Source: Tenrec ecaudatus
Lineage: Eukaryota > Chordata > Mammalia > Afrosoricida > Tenrecidae
Direction of reading: 5' to 3'
NCBI RefSeq assembly: GCF_050624435.1
Contig: NC_134536.1
Location: 8,560,758-8,624,757, forward strand
DNA length: 64,000 nt
Shown: positions 1 to 60,540 of the stretch, one piece after another
Position numbering within the stretch: position 1 is the stretch's first letter
How the letters are laid out: every line of letters starts with the position of its first letter
The notes under the pieces: generated by a model
Told to the model about the DNA's origin: nothing
Seen by the model: only the letters and a program-made list of their open reading frames with translations
Database searches by the model: none
Program-made: the position numbers and the translations under genes

Positions 1-1695
1 GGCCTCACCACGGGACACAGCATTCCTCACTGACCCATAGCACCATGGGGAACAACACTAGAGACACAAGGCAGGAATTGTGCCCACCCTGAGCTCACTA
101 TGCTGAAGCCAGACTCTGAGGACATGCAGCAGAGCAGCGGGGGGAGCAGAGCAATGAAGTCCCCAGTGATAGATGTGGAGCCAGGGCATGGCACCCCATC
201 AGACTGGACTGGAAAGCATTCATGAAGGACAACAAATAGACTCTGAAGTATTTATAGGATATTTTTTGTGTTGTTGGTGGTGTAGCTATTGTTTTGCTTT
301 CTATTGTTGCTTCATTGTACTCAGTCTTGTGATGGTACATAGCATGTCTACCTGGAAGGGATAGGCAGGATGAGCAAGCAGGAAAAGAGAACAATGGGAT
401 GACAGTTTGGGGGGACATGGTAGAAGGGGAGGCAGGGAAAAGGAAGTGTTTGTTAAACCCAGGGACAAGGGAACAACAAGTAATCCAAAATCAGTGGCAA
501 GGAGGCTGTAAGAGGTCTGGCAGGGCTGGATCAAGGGCAATGTAACCAAGAGGAATTCCTGGAACCCAAATGAAGGCTGAACATGATAGGGGGACAAGAG
601 GAAAGTACAAAGAAATAGAGGAAAGAACTAGGAGGCAAAGGGTGGTTATAGAGATCTAAATATAGGCATATACAGATATAAATAGATTTATATACAATGA
701 GGGGAAATAGATCTATGTACATATATTTATAGGCTTAGTATTAAGGAAACAGATGGACAGTGGGCCTCTGCTCAAGTACTTCCTCAACACAAGAACACTT
801 CGTTCTAACAATTCGGCAGTCTGAGATGCTCACCTTCCTGGCACAATCACTGAAGACAATGGGTGCACAAACAAAAGTGGCGAAGAAAGCTGATGATGCC
901 CGGCTATCAAAAGATATAGTGTCTGGGGTCTTAAAGGCCTGAAGATAAACAAGCAGCCATCTAGCCAAGAAACAACAAAGCCCACATGGAAGAAGCACAC
1001 CAGCCTGTGAGATCACAAGGCATCAAAGGGATCAGAGACCCCCCCCCAAAAAAAGCATAGCATTGTGAATGAGAGGGGGTATAGAGTGGGGACCCAGGGC
1101 CCATCTTTGGGAAATTGGACATCCCCTTGCAGAACAGCTATGGGAAGGAGACGAGCCAGTCAGAGTGCAATGATGAAACATACAATTTCCCTCTAGTTCT
1201 TGAGTTCTTGAATGCTTCCTTCTCCCCCCCCCACCCCCCACACTATCATGATCCCAATTCTACCTTACAAATCTAACTGGTACAGATGGGAACTGGAAAC
1301 ACAAGGAATCCAGGACAGATGAACCTCTCAGGACCAGTGGTGAAAGTGGCAATACCAGGAGGGTGGAGGGAAGGTGAGGGAGAAAGGGGAACAGTTTACA
1401 AGGATCTACATATAACCTCCTCCATGGGGGATGAACAGCAGAGAAGTGGGTGAAGGGAGACATTGGATGATGTAAGATATGACAAAATAATAATAATTTA
1501 TAAATTATCAAGGGTTTATGGGGGAGGGAGAGGCGGGGGAGGGGAAACATGAGGAGCTGATACCAAGGCCTCAAGTAGAAGGCAAATGTTTTAAGAATGA
1601 TGATGGCAACATATGTACAAATGTGCTTGACACGATGGATGGATGGATTATGATAAGGGCTGTACAAGCCCCCAATAAAATGATTTTTTTTAAAA
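1..1695 (+). mobile_element. L1 LINE 3' end, young afrotherian/tenrec-type family
   Basis: This non-coding sequence matches at least five other places in the window: its first 650 bases match 24690-25403, and the remainder matches 57985-59140 and, inverted, 9797-10366, 15461-16725 and 53609-55015. It ends in AATAAAATG followed by a T/A-rich tail, as expected of an L1 3' UTR. The window starts inside it. None of the small ORFs across it is a gene. A G- and C-rich stretch near 1224-1245 is part of the element. Confidence 0.8.
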
Positions 1696-2215
1696 AAAAC
1701 AGTGAAGGAGTGGCGTCTAACCTGACAATCAGGTCACATCCTGATGATGCTTCTAGTGGGTGTGGTCTCATGAGGATTCTGGGCATTTTATCTCTCTGCC
1801 TTCATGTTCCTCTTGACAAGTCGTGGGGAGACTTGCTGAGGCCTGTGAATACCCACTCTCTCTGCTTTACCTTTCTGTTGAAGAGCCAAACTCTGAGAGC
1901 TGGAGGAGTCAAGTGGAGAGCCATGCCAGCACTGACATGCTTCCACTGCCATTGGATCCACACCCACCCAGACTTTGCACCCACCAGCCTGTGATCTTCC
2001 TGCATTTTACATCATAGCATGGAACTGTGTGAGTCTAAAGAGAGATTTATGCACTAGCATTGGACTTATGGACTAATATCAGACTTATGGACTTGATCTG
2101 GACTGGGCTGGGATGTTTTCTTGATATATAAGTGCTTTTTAATATAAAGCTCTCTCTTGCACACATATATGAGTATTTCTGGATTTGTTTCTCTAGTCAA
2201 CCCGACTTACACACT
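1696..2215 (+). repeat. Repeat A copy (unnamed family of about 520 bp)
   Basis: It abuts the L1 tail on its left. Diagnostic parts are the 'ACTGCCATTGGATCCAC' block near 1950, the 'CCTGTGATCTTCCTGCAT' block near 1988-2005, and a 3' end reading 'GTTTCTCTAGTCAACCC' followed by ACTTACACAC. The same blocks recur in the same order at 16826, 17838, 28660, 51245 and 60627, and inverted at 7322 and 15985. Confidence 0.7.
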
Positions 2216-6600: not shown

Positions 6601-7250
6601 TGTTTGGTGCCCTGGAGTCAGTGCTAGGTGCAACCGAAGGGAACACGTCCCGGCCCTGCGCCTTCCTCACAATTGTTCTTGTGTTTGAGCTCATCAAGGC
6701 AGCCACGGTGTCAATCCAAATTATTTAAGTTCTCCTTTTTTAATTTCCCCACTCCTGCACCACTGCTTGACCAAGCATGATGTCTTCTCCAGGGACTGGC
6801 CTCTCCTGATGACATGTCCAAAGTTCATGAGACAAAGTTGCACCACCCTTGCCTCTAAGGTGCCTGCTGGCCAACCTGCTTCCAAGACACCTTTGTTTGT
6901 CCGTTTGGCAGCCCATGCATAGTACTTTTCAATATTCTTTTCTGGCACCGTAATCCAACGATATCGATTCTTCTTCAGTCTTCCTTATTCCACGTCCAGA
7001 TTTCACACGCATATGAGGTGATTAAAGACACCATGGCCTAGGTCAGGTGCATTTTGGTCCTCAAAGTAGCATGCTTGCTTTTCAACACTTTAAAGAGGTT
7101 GGGTGCAGCAGACTGACCCAACGCAATGCATCAGTCCATCTCTTGAATCCTTTCCCATGAGGATTGGTTATGGATCCAAGCAAAACAAAATCCTTTGACA
7201 ACTTCAGTCTTTTCTCCATTTCTCATGATGTGACCTATTAGGAAATCAGG
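6601..7250 (-). mobile_element. RTE LINE 3' part
   Basis: On the minus strand the segment follows the RTE order seen in 25404-25997: a lysine-rich 'GTGAAATCTGGACGTGGAAT' region equivalent, the 'CTGGAGAAGACATCATGCTT' block at about 6775-6800, and a 3' end with ACTCCAGGGCACCAAAC at 6600. All frames are broken, so no reverse transcriptase could be made. Confidence 0.65.
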
Positions 7251-9796: not shown

Positions 9797-10366
9797 TTTT
9801 TTTTTTAAATCATTTTATTGGGGACTTTTACAGCTCTTAGAACATTCCATACATCAATTTTATCAAGCATATTTGCACATATGTTGCCATCATCATTTCC
9901 AAAACATTTTCTACTTAAGCCCTTGATATAAGCATCTCTTTTTTTCCCCTCCCTTGTCCACCCTTATGAATCCTTGATCAATTACATATTGCTATTATTA
10001 AGTCTCATCTTATACTGTCTGTTGTCTCCCTTCACCTACCTTTCTGTTATTTGTCCCCTTCAGAGGTTTCCCCTTTGTGATGGGCTCCCCCTTCCTCCCC
10101 CTTCTCCCTCCCCGACCATCCCTCTACCTATCATTACTCCCACTACCATTCCAGAGGGGTCTATCTGCCCTGAATTCCATGTGTCGAGGCTCTTATCTGT
10201 ACCAATGTGTGTTCTCCGCTCTAGCCGGATTTGTAAGGTAGACCTGGTCAGGGTAGTAGCGGGAGGAAGCATTCAGGAACTGGAGGAACGATGTGTATTT
10301 CAGCGGTACTATTCTGCACCTTGGTTGAATCATCCTTTCCTTATAACCCTTCTGTGGGAGGATGGT
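9797..10366 (-). mobile_element. 5'-truncated L1 insertion with target-site duplication
   Basis: The poly-A tail appears as a T-run at 9797, followed by the inverted L1 3' UTR. The insertion is framed by CAAATTTACAAG at 9785-9796 and CAACTTTACAAG at 10367-10378, a 12-bp duplication with one mismatch. Its boundaries are therefore well defined. The ORF at 9974-10414 is an L1 shadow. Confidence 0.85.
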
Positions 10367-10378
10367 CAACTTTACAAG

Positions 10379-11254
10379 TGTGTTCTTTTCCCTCGCACAG
10401 AAGCACCCTGGTGAATGTGGCGCAGGCCAAGCAGGTTTCCTTCTGTTGTGTGTCGGGTCACCACGACTAGGCACCTGATAACATTCCTCTCCCCACAGGC
10501 CTGTCGCAGTCCCTGCTACCTGGCACACTGAGGAGCATCTTTTGGTTTTTATTATGGTGCCAATTCTTTTTGTTCTGTTTCTATTTTGCCCTCTGATTAA
10601 CCTTAATGTCCTTTGAAGGTCATGGTAATGATGGAAAAGTTCAAGTTATCCCCGCCCTGCTCGCTCTACTGCCTCTCCAAAGCCCATGTCTGTCTTCGCC
10701 ACGGCCCAGAGGGAGCCACCACTGCCAGGGAGGAGCTGTCCGGAGGGTGGCAGGATTGGCAAGACACTCCAGGGAGAGGGAGTGTCCAAAAAATCATAAC
10801 AAGGGGTGGCGATGGGATCGCTTATTTCCTGGAGTTTTGCCCATTTTCTCACTGGGGAGCCTTTGAAACATTAGCACAGAATTCACAAAACCCTTGATTA
10901 AAAGCGTCCACACTGGGATGATGCTGGGCTGTTGATTGCTTTACTGGACTTTCTGCAAATGGAACCCATTGCCATTTCCACGCCTGGTCATTCCTGTTTG
11001 CAGCTGGCCGGCAGTTGGCTTTGTTGCCATGGGGACTGTTTCCACAAGACACAAACACATCAGCTTTGTGAAATCTCTGGGGGGAACCAACAGCTGGAAG
11101 GTGCCGGGCCATTAGCAGGAAGGAGAACGTGTCTGCTGGGTGTTTGCATGGACACCGCTACTAAAATTGTGGCTCCAACGTAGCCAACATCTCTGTAGGA
11201 CTTAGACTCCTGAGTACTTCAGAAACCCAAACTCAAGGCTCATCACATGCCACA
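10379..11254. other. Intergenic, no feature recognised
   Basis: Several ORFs of 70-110 codons overlap here on both strands without a domain or a repeat match that I can support. Confidence 0.5.
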
Positions 11255-11349: not shown

Positions 11350-11830
11350 GCATAACCCCTATATCTGTTTCTTATGGCTGCTGTAACAAAATACAATACA
11401 TTGGGTACCAAAAATAACTCATCACCTCACAGGCCTGGAGGCTGCATGTCTGAAATCAGGGTGTTAGGAGGGTCATGTTCTTTCCAATGACTTTAAAGCA
11501 GTGGTTCTCAACCTGTGCCTGGCCACCCCTTTGGAGGTCGAACAATCCTTTCACAGAGGTCGTCCGATTCTTAACAGTAGCAAAATTACAGTTATGAAGT
11601 AGCATAAAAATAATTTGATGGTTGGAGGGTCACCACAACAAGAGGAACTGTGTAAAAGGCTCATGGCATGAGGCAGGTTGAGAACCACTGCTTTCAAGAG
11701 AGACCTTTCCTTGTCTTTTCCAGCTCCTGGTGGCCCCAAGTGTCTGTGGCTTGGAGCCGCATCTTCACAGGGCTGGTTTCTCTTTATAGAGCTCTCTTGC
11801 TTCATAAAGACAGACTCAGATTGCATTAGA
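11350..11830 (+). repeat. Ancient mammalian interspersed repeat split by a SPIN insertion
   Basis: Left part 11360-11498 (TTATGGCTGCTGTAACAAAA, then CCTGGAGGCTGCATGTCTGA) and right part 11691-11830 (CCTTGTCTTTTCCAGCTCCT) are consecutive pieces of a repeat that I know from many placental genomes but cannot name with confidence. The 192-bp element between them is described separately. Confidence 0.55.
11499..11690. mobile_element. SPIN-type hAT MITE, copy 1
   Basis: Ends CAGTGGTTCTCAACC (11499) and GGTTGAGAACCACTG (11690) are exact inverted repeats of at least 15 bp. The 8-bp flanks CTTTAAAG (11491-11498) and CTTTCAAG (11691-11698) differ at one base, as expected of a hAT target duplication. 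The interior (CCCTTTGGAGGTCGAACAAT) matches the SPIN ('space invader') non-autonomous consensus as I remember it. No transposase is encoded. Confidence 0.9.
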
Positions 11831-16725: not shown

Positions 16726-17415
16726 ATTGGCTCTAACTCATAATGGCCTTATATACAACAGTAAAAGACACTCCCGGCCTTATACTGTCTCCACAATTGT
16801 AGATATACTGAATCTAACTTTGGAGCCTGTGGCAGTTACATAACCTGGTGTCAACTTGAGACTATTAAGAGTGAAGGTGTGGAGTTTAGCCTGTCAATCG
16901 GGTTGCTGCTTGTTGACCTCATTTAGAGGTACTGAGGAGATAAGTAGCTGACCGGAGGCCAGATACACACTCTCTCTGCTTCATCTCCCTGAAAGACATT
17001 CCTGTTGACAAGCCACATGGAGACACACTGATGGAGTCAGAGCCCTGGAACTGGGGGAGCCACATGGAGACCCACACCAGCACTGAGATCTTTTCACCAC
17101 CACTGGATCCACAAGATTCTCCACCCACTGGCCTGTGATCTTCCTGCACACGGCATTATTGCATGGCTGGGTGAGCCTAAAGAGGAATGTATAGACTAGT
17201 ATTGGACATACGGCTAATATTGGAATTATGGATTTGATATTGGACATGGCTGGTATGTTTCTTAATATACAATTACTGTTTGATATAAAACTCTCTCTTA
17301 CATACATATGAGTGTCCTGGGATTTGTTTCTCTAGTCAACCTAGAGTAGCACAGAGCCACTGTGCCCATCCATCTCATTGAAACTCTACTTTTAAACAGA
17401 CCCTCTACATTATCA
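16726..17415 (-). mobile_element. RTE 3' end split by repeat A
   Basis: RTE sequence at about 16735-16825 (GCATTCAATTGGCTCTAACT, GTCTCCACAATTGTAG) resumes at 17352-17400 with GAGCCACTGTGCCCATCCAT and CTCATTGAAACTCTAC. The uninterrupted order is visible at 60288-60440. Repeat A (next entry) lies between. Confidence 0.65.
16826..17350 (+). repeat. Repeat A copy inserted into RTE
   Basis: Begins GCAGTTACATAACCTGGTGT, passes the CCACCACTGGATCCACAAGA and GGCCTGTGATCTTCCTGCAC blocks, and ends ATGAGTGTCCTGGGATTTGT with GTTTCTCTAGTCAACC. One of the best-preserved copies in the window. Confidence 0.75.
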
Positions 17416-22289: not shown

Positions 22290-24245
22290 CAATTGTCTGT
22301 CAGTTTGTTGTACTGTGGGGGCATGCTTGTTCCAGTGATGCCAGAAGTTATGTCACTGGTATTTCAAATGCTAGCAGGGTCACTCAAAGTTAACAGGTTT
22401 CAGCAGAGTTTTCAGACTAAGAATATACTATGATGAAGAAATAGAATTTCGTGCCAGGGGTGTTGGTCATTGAAAACCTTAAGGAAAGCATCGAAACATT
22501 GTCAGAAACTAAGAACCTCATGAGTAGAAGCAGAACATTGTTAGAGATACTGCCAGAAATAAGCCCCTCCAGTTGGAAGAAACTCAAAATATGACTGAAG
22601 AACAGTTGCCTTCTCACGGTGGAGTCAACAACAATGACATGGATGGAGTAAAGCTCCCGGAGCTTCTTTTGCTGATAGGGCACCACTCAAAATGAAAAGC
22701 TGCAAACATCAATTAGTAATCAGAACTTGGAAAGGATGCAATAGGAATCTAGGATAATTAAAGATAACCAAAAATGAAATGGAATACATAAAGATCTGCA
22801 TTCTAGGTGTCAGTGAGCTGACATGGATGGGTATTACCATTTTGATTCAGAACATCATGTGGTTTACGATGCTGAAAATGATGGATAAAGAGGAATGATA
22901 TCTCATTCATTGTCAAAAAGGATATTTCAAGATTAATTTTAAAGTACATTGATGTCTTTTATGGGATAATATGTATATGCATAAAGGAAATCCAATCAAT
23001 ACAACTATTACTCAAATTTATGGCCCAACCACTAAGAATTCTACTAACATTTTCACTCTCAAATTGATCACACATGCAATCAAGATGCATTGAAAACCTT
23101 GAGAAGAATGGGGATCCCAGAGAAATTCCTTGTGCTCATTTGGAACTTGTTGTGAGAACAGAACAAGGGAATGTGACTGCATGGTTTGAAATCAGGAAAG
23201 ATGTGCATCAAGTTTCTATTCTCTCACCATACGTATTCAATCTGTATGCTGAGAAAATCATCAGAGAAGCTAGATTACTATATTAAGAAGAATGTGGCAT
23301 CAGGATTGGAGGAAGCCTTCTTAACAACCTGTGATGTGCAGATGACTCAAACTTGCTTGCTGGAAATGAGGAGGACTTGGAGAATTTACTGATGGAGATC
23401 CAGGATCGCAGCTTTCAGTATGGATTACAACTCAATGTAAAGAAAACCAAATTCTTCAAAACGGAAGCAGCATGTAACATCATGATAAGTGGAGAAACAA
23501 TTGAGAGTGGCAAAGATTTCATTTTTATTTGGCTCCAAAAATCTGTGCTCATGGCAGCAGCAGTTAAAAAAACAAGCTATGTATAGCGTTGCATAAATGT
23601 GCTGCACACAACTTCATCAAAGTTTTGAAGAGCAAGGATGTCACTTTGAAGACTTAGGTGCACCTGGCCCAAGCCATGCTATTTCCCATGGCCTTGTGTG
23701 CATGTGGAAGTTGGATATTGAATAAGGAACGCAGAGTAGAAATGGGTGCGTTTGAATTTGGGTGTTGGCAAATATTAAAAGTGTCATGGACTTCCAGAAG
23801 AGCAAAGAAATCTGTCTTAGAAGAAATGGAGCGACTTCATGGCCGGAGAGCTCAGTCTCTGGAAAAGGAAGTCATGTTTGGTAAGCTGGGATGGCAACCA
23901 AGAAAGGAGACCCTCTACATCAGTGGTTCTCAACCTTCCTAATTCTGTGACCCTTTAATACAGTTCTTCATGTGGTGCTGACCCCAACCATCAAATTATT
24001 TTCATTGCTACTTCATCACTTTCATCTTGCTATTTATGAATCAATGACTGCTGTGAAAGGGTCGTTTGAACCTCAAGAGGGTCGCGACCCACAGGTTGAG
24101 AACCACTGCTCTACATGATGGACTGGCAGTGGGGCTGCCAGACTGGGCTCAAGCATCACAATGGTGAGGATGGCACAGGACTGGACAGTGTTTTGTTCTG
24201 CTGTCCACAGGGTCATTATGAGTCACACAGGTTTGACAGCACTTA
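22290..24245 (+). mobile_element. RTE/BovB-clade LINE, longest copy, internally deleted and split by SPIN
   Basis: It opens with the RTE 5' block (TTGTCTGTCAGTTTGTTGTA). It then has a stretch resembling the endonuclease domain (22800-23040; ATTTATGGCCCAACCACTAA), and after a deletion the reverse-transcriptase region (23090-23600). In that region the peptide QLNVKKTKF, preceded by 'TCDVQMTQT' where the family has a YADD-like active site, shows the catalytic motif to be mutated. The 3' end reads GTCATTATGAGTCACACAGG with TTTGACAGCACTTAACA. Stops and frameshifts abound. SPIN sits inside at 23921-24108. Confidence 0.8.
23921..24108. mobile_element. SPIN-type hAT MITE, copy 2, with perfect target duplication
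   Basis: The left end CAGTGGTTCTCAACCTTCCT and right end GGTTGAGAACCACTG are inverted repeats. CTCTACAT flanks both sides (23913-23920 and 24109-24116) with no mismatch, an 8-bp hAT duplication. The interior (GACCCTTTAATACAGTTC, then GGGTCGCGACCCACAGGTTG) is very close to the SPIN non-autonomous consensus as I recall it. Removing it rejoins the RTE sequence exactly, so it is younger than the RTE copy. Confidence 0.95.
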
Positions 24246-24334
24246 ACACCCCCAGCACCCTGATTTTGTTCTTCTCAGAATTATGGCAGGTGGGGCAAAG
24301 GTGGGTGGAAGCAGAATTATTGTGGAGAGGAGAC

Positions 24335-35395: not shown

Positions 35396-35663
35396 GTGCA
35401 AGGATGGCGAGACTTCATCTCGCGTCCTTTGGACATGTTGTCAGGAGAGACCAGTCCCTGGAGAAAGACATCGTGCTTGGTAAAGCAGAGGAGCAATGGG
35501 AAAGAGGAAGGTCCTCAACAAGATGGATTGACACCGTGGCTGCAACAATGGATTCAAGCATAGGAACCATTGTGAGGCTGGTGCAGGACTGGGCCATGGT
35601 TCATTCTGTCACGCATGGGGTCGCTATGGGTTGGAACTGATTCAGTGGCCCCTAACAGCAGAC
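35396..35663 (+). mobile_element. RTE LINE 3' end, well preserved
   Basis: The peptide at 35430-35600 (VVRRDQSLEKDIVLGKAEE, then RGRSSTRWIDTVAATM) is the C-terminal part of the RTE ORF and still open for about 70 codons. The 3' end reads GGTCGCTATGGGTTGGAACT with CCCCTAACAGCAG. Compare the inverted copy at 60288-60540, whose frame is open over the same stretch. Confidence 0.8.
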
Positions 35664-60287: not shown

Positions 60288-60540
60288 TGTAGTTGTTAGG
60301 TGCTGACGAAGTTGGTTCTGACTCAGAGTGACCCTATGTATGACACAACAAAATATGGTCTGGTCCTGTGCCAGTTTCACAATTGTTATGTTTGAGCCCC
60401 TCATTGCAGCCACTGTGTCCGTCCATCTTGTTAAGGGTCTTCCTTTTGCCTGCTTCCCCTCTACTTTACCAAGCATCGTGTCCTTCCCCAGGGACTGGTC
60501 TCTCCTGACAAGTCCAAAGTACGTGAGACAAAGTCTCACG
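60288..60540 (-). mobile_element. RTE LINE 3' end, frame open
   Basis: The minus strand encodes VRRDQSLGKDTMLGKVEGKQ, then RWTDTVAAM, the same C-terminal peptide as in 35396-35663. The 3' end at 60288 is the GTTAGGTGCTGACGAAGTTG block. Confidence 0.8.

Follow-up and report, generated by a model that had tools for sequence, protein, structure and literature searches.

We identified, with high confidence, the short repeat at positions 23921-24108 of the window (the whole 64,000-nucleotide stretch of Tenrec ecaudatus DNA that was analyzed) as 1 copy of a high-copy, non-autonomous, SPIN-type hAT element of the Buster group, MITE-like, ~192 bp in length, gene-free, and probably inserted some 30 to 50 million years ago. 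The SPIN identity is very likely, and its basis is anatomy, target site, copy number, and literature descriptions rather than alignment to a consensus. SPIN is attributed to horizontal transfer and is patchily distributed across distant tetrapods, with murine rodents among its published hosts and a transfer into tenrec placed at 15-46 million years ago (PMC5857283; the range is also given in PMC4079192).

The element occupies 188 bp on the forward strand, with no coding capacity seen. Its 5' terminal inverted repeat (23921-23936, forward strand) and 3' terminal inverted repeat (24093-24108, reverse strand) are each 16 bp long, the 3' repeat being a perfect complement of the 5' end, and both agree with the short terminal inverted repeats of 10-25 bp described for hAT elements (PMC3942097). 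The initial annotation had reported inverted ends of 15 bp; the inverted ends are present, but they extend 1 bp further than was described. The 8-bp target-site duplication typical of hAT elements was also found, with CTCTACAT, carrying TA at its centre, adjoining both ends of the element at 23913-23920 and 24109-24116 (both forward strand). The right copy is identical to the left at 8/8 positions, and the chance of a single abutting pair of this kind is 1.5e-5. With inverted ends and duplications located, the span 23913-24116 and the perfect 8-bp target duplication that had been annotated earlier both proved correct.

A second full-length copy of the same family, absent from the initial annotation, was located at 11499-11690 on the reverse strand, with a length of 192 bp and 17-bp inverted ends. 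It is flanked on the forward strand by the duplications CTTTAAAG (11491-11498) and CTTTCAAG (11691-11698), which match each other at 7/8 positions. The 2 copies in the window are only 78.8% identical over 193 aligned columns, which argues against a very young family.

We fetched 68 copies from the genome, 39 of them seeded by 23921-24108 (A-seeded) and 29 by 11499-11690 (B-seeded), and analyzed the 8-mers flanking each. Perfect duplications were found in 13/68 copies, compared with 0.6% of shuffled flank pairs, and 8-mers with at most 2 mismatches in 49/68 copies, compared with 11% of shuffled pairs, with the remaining 19/68 copies having at least 3 mismatches. Across both flanks of the 68 copies, position 4 was T at a frequency of 0.88 and position 5 was A at 0.92, and TA occurred at positions 4-5 on at least 1 side in all 49 good pairs (those with at most 2 mismatches). 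The target consensus is close to CTCTAGAG, which CTCTACAT of the 23921-24108 element fits. The target sites of the 68 copies thus follow the nnnTAnnn pattern given as the TcBuster target consensus in PMC3499496, where SPIN and Buster are both placed in the Buster group; the Ac and Buster groups are described as differing in target choice (PMC3942097). The anatomy, together with this Buster-type target site, supports a non-autonomous element of hAT type with the features expected of SPIN.

An RTE-like LINE copy carries the element in its 3' part, and the 3' end of this LINE copy aligns to other RTE copies across the junction, with its left part at 23845-23920 and its right part at 24117-24248 (both forward strand). 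The flanks were joined with a single duplication kept and aligned to other RTE copies in the window. The joined flanks aligned across the junction, with only small gaps, to 3 copies without the insert, at 60294-60505 on the reverse strand (71% over 213 columns, E 7e-22), 35444-35608 on the forward strand (70% over 167 columns, E 7e-10), and, as a weak match, 6642-6806 on the reverse strand (65% over 166 columns, E 0.007). Further, 1 frame stays open over the 87 codons between 23658 and the junction and over another 43 codons past it, up to a stop at 24244-24246, and at the filled site the same frame hits stops inside the element. The inverted ends, the 8-bp duplication, and the RTE relatives lacking the insert bear out the earlier description of a hAT element within an RTE copy, and the claim that the RTE reading rejoins when the element is removed holds on both the frame and the alignments, 1 of the 3 relatives aligning weakly. 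It follows directly from the sequence that the RTE copy inserted first and the small element later. Upstream, from 22401 to ~23657, the RTE copy has 21, 22, and 23 stops in the 3 frames, and the host copy is therefore a dead remnant. BovB, an RTE element, is reported to be present in afrotherians (PMC5857283).

Other repeats were also observed in the window. SINEs with a tRNA-like head were represented by 7 matches to 1 such head, itself included. These SINEs and the RTE copies are consistent with an afrotherian host, and SPIN in such a host would point to a tenrec. The open stretches at 1260-1733 (reverse strand) and 9932-10414 (forward strand) have translations that look alike by eye and are probably copies of 1 interspersed repeat, not genes.

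The window's own genome, a 3.92-Gb assembly of 2,140 contigs, was searched for further members of the family. With 23921-24108 as the query, 2,913 first-look candidates were obtained, and all 40 that were scored matched; among these 40, the sole 100% match was the window itself and the next best was 87%, and therefore there is no sign that the insertion belongs to a recent duplication. With the second copy as the query, 40 of 40 scored candidates matched (6,608 first-look candidates). A 19-mer of the 3' end had 17,110 exact matches in the genome (8,698 and 8,412), with 0 for the same 19-mer reversed as a control, and was kept in 32 of the 68 fetched copies. Similar copies in the genome number in the tens of thousands. 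Dividing the 17,110 matches by the 32/68 retention gives a rough estimate of ~36,000 copies, and the same 19-mer count with an assumed divergence of 10% gives a rough ~127,000. A third rough estimate of ~74,000 copies (95% range, 24,000-172,000) is based on the 5 copies or fragments counted in ~266 kb selected without regard to the element, a sample that includes the non-random window and counts some kb of hAT loci twice.

Because words that occur very often are left out of the genome search, it probably picked up copies by the less frequent words that they have in common with each query. The 192-base consensus, used as the query in this search, returned 0 candidates, its words probably being too common. 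The fetched copies, picked by similarity and with common words skipped, are not a random sample, and this affects their divergences. Between the consensus sequences of the A-seeded and the B-seeded copies there is a difference of 4.7%, which in our opinion arises because the search samples copies via unusual words. No relatives were found in viral and prokaryote contigs with exact patterns, in phages with the first copy as a blastn query, or in plasmids with the second copy as a blastn query, as expected, since vertebrate genomes lie outside these collections.

Further copies or fragments lie ~0.5 to 1.4 kb from fetched ones, at positions 2187-2382 of locus L060 and at 5-104 and 2259-2395 of locus L069. 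At L069 5-104, a 5' piece joins a 3' piece directly, making a shorter deletion derivative.

An autonomous SPIN partner was searched for in 23 hAT-domain loci, with ~1.5-kb flanks scanned, and the ends of this family were found in 0 of the 23. These loci were drawn from 147 PF05699 and 3 PF14291 matches, with 127 of the 147 PF05699 matches lying outside the sample, and they represent 20 distinct places, as L078 and L079 are identical and L082/L098 and L095/L100 overlap. The identity between L078 and L079 (contigs C139 and C152) covers 3,237 bases at 100%, in opposite orientation, takes in a hAT-domain match whose frame is 727 aa long, and suggests a recent duplication or an uncollapsed haplotype. 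The assembly thus contains at least 1 exactly duplicated stretch, and copies may therefore be double-counted in places. On contig C40, 9 hAT dimerisation-domain matches of 31.5-34.2 bits are spread over ~22 Mb (~15.97-37.68 Mb) on both strands, in frames of 86 aa in 8 of them and 99 aa in 1. The C40 matches suggest an amplified sequence carrying a hAT-derived fragment.

That the inverted ends and duplication arose by chance in a repetitive region has a negligible probability. A loose end scan allowing 3 mismatches gave 6 matches in the window, where 2.66 were expected, and 5 of 100 shuffles reached that number; this leaves chance some room, but the 4 exact end matches pair into 2 complete elements, the genome-wide 19-mer count stands at 17,110 against 0 in the control, and 49/68 copies have duplications with at most 2 mismatches. 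The chance reading is refuted by the genome-wide family. Very unlikely, though more probable than chance, is a MITE of another hAT family, such as OC1 or hAT1, in place of SPIN. The ends of hAT families resemble one another, and the family was separated from OC1 and hAT1 by descriptions; on the other side, the family consensus seems to agree with the SPIN_NA sequence, which we take as a lead and not as a test. OC1 (OposCharlie1), a horizontally transferred family, is present in tenrec too, at a published 6,837 copies and with a similar mean divergence, 8.1% (PMC3621081), likened here by description, but the at least 17,110 exact 19-mers exceed that published count. Central-TA target sites also fit the Buster group, where PMC3499496 puts SPIN.

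Within the SPIN reading, the age of the insertion was estimated from divergence. Compared with the closest consensus, which is the A-seeded one, 23921-24108 has 17 differences in 188 positions (9%, K2P 0.097), rising to 19/188 (10%, K2P 0.109) for the consensus of all 68 copies and 24/188 (13%, K2P 0.141) for the B-seeded consensus. With the neutral rate in tenrec set at 2.9173e-9 per site per year (given in PMC4079192, quoting Pace and colleagues 2008), these values correspond to ~33, 37, and 48 million years, respectively, the middle figure having a standard error of 7.5. The second copy dates at the same PMC4079192 rate to ~52, 43, or 36 million years with the A-seeded, overall, and B-seeded consensus, and the ages of the 2 copies fall for the most part in the published range of 15-46 million years and partly just outside it (48 and 52), a comparison that presupposes a tenrec host. 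The initial annotation had read the undecayed duplication as a sign of a fairly recent insertion, a claim that the divergence of 17/188 (~33 million years at the PMC4079192 rate) does not support. The probability that an 8-bp duplication survives intact at 9% divergence is ~0.20, and a perfect one was observed in 13/68 copies; expected in ~1 in 5 copies at that divergence, it is therefore no evidence of recency. A SPIN insertion only a few million years old is highly improbable. The duplication of 23921-24108 is indeed intact at 8/8 positions, and the mean K2P is slightly lower in copies with a perfect duplication (0.079, n = 13) than in those with 1-3 mismatches (0.086, n = 41), but 17 differences in 188 positions would arise with a probability of 2.5e-7 if the divergence were 2%, compared with 0.10 if it were 9%. 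Ranked from the least diverged, the element is 32nd of 40 in the first set when all sites are counted and 40th of 40 when CpG sites are left out; in the larger set it is 65th of 69. Among the 39 A-seeded copies, the lowest K2P is 0.054. The young-insertion reading is disfavoured by both the divergence and the rank order.

For the preferred reading, an old copy of a SPIN-type family, we propose that a SPIN-type transposase supplied in trans would have cut such an element out elsewhere and that the excised element would have been pasted into the RTE remnant present there beforehand, with the 8-bp duplication arising in the process. This insertion may have taken place some 30 to 50 million years ago, on the PMC4079192 rate, and the element and its site would have decayed neutrally since. 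We also considered whether the 2 window copies represent distinguishable sub-lineages, 1 combining T at consensus position 47 with G at position 54 and the other lacking this combination, that amplified separately in more than 1 SPIN burst or entry in the lineage; this reading is unlikely. Positions 47 and 54 are linked (11/12 compared with 12/52, p = 1.7e-5; p = 0.004 in the A-seeded set), as are positions 99 and 105 (p = 1.5e-5 overall and 0.001 in the B-seeded set), but neither linkage is relied on because rare-word sampling can create such linkage.

The element is very likely an ordinary copy of a published, horizontally transferred family, SPIN being already known in tenrec, and as a single copy it carries little weight because SPIN in tenrec has been published. 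It also calls for caution, as an intact 8-bp duplication is nearly uninformative on age when 13/68 copies of an old family keep one.

Among published sequences, the mouse Ate1 genotyping primer ATE Scr R1 (PMC2767504) includes a stretch identical to bases 1-19 of the reverse-complemented family consensus, a 19/19 agreement read directly off the printed consensus. The companion primer R2 (PMC2767504), ~55 bases further in, matches the consensus at 10 bases out of the first 12 and at 12/20 overall, departing from it after the 12th base. The stretches are short and the excerpt of PMC2767504 gives no SPIN name, and we regard a match of the Ate1 primer pair to the 3' end of the family as suggestive, judged from the primer sequences. 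Two other primers were rejected, namely, a Drc1 primer (PMC8522639) sharing 17 contiguous bases, which may be fortuitous given the size of the text library searched, and a TH primer, which matches an 11-mer but is unrelated.

This family has its 8-bp nnnTAnnn target duplications in common with TcBuster and the Buster group (PMC3499496). TcBuster, from insects, is a transposon system that includes a transposase, whereas 23921-24108 has no transposase gene, and the 2 are likened by target site only. Compared with its own family consensus, the element is 4 bases shorter and differs by 17-24 substitutions, depending on the consensus used. The closest likeness by description is to SPIN_NA of the lesser hedgehog tenrec (SPIN_NA_1_Et, the suffix Et presumably standing for tenrec), with which it shares inverted ends, a non-coding length of ~190 bp, and an 8-bp duplication with central TA, and from which no difference was seen at the level of description. 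PMC3183009 names SPIN_NA_1_Et as a SPIN family and lists it in a bat. A very high copy number in 1 genome is likewise shared with SPIN_NA, and the estimated ages fall largely, though not entirely, in the 15-46 million years published for tenrec SPIN.
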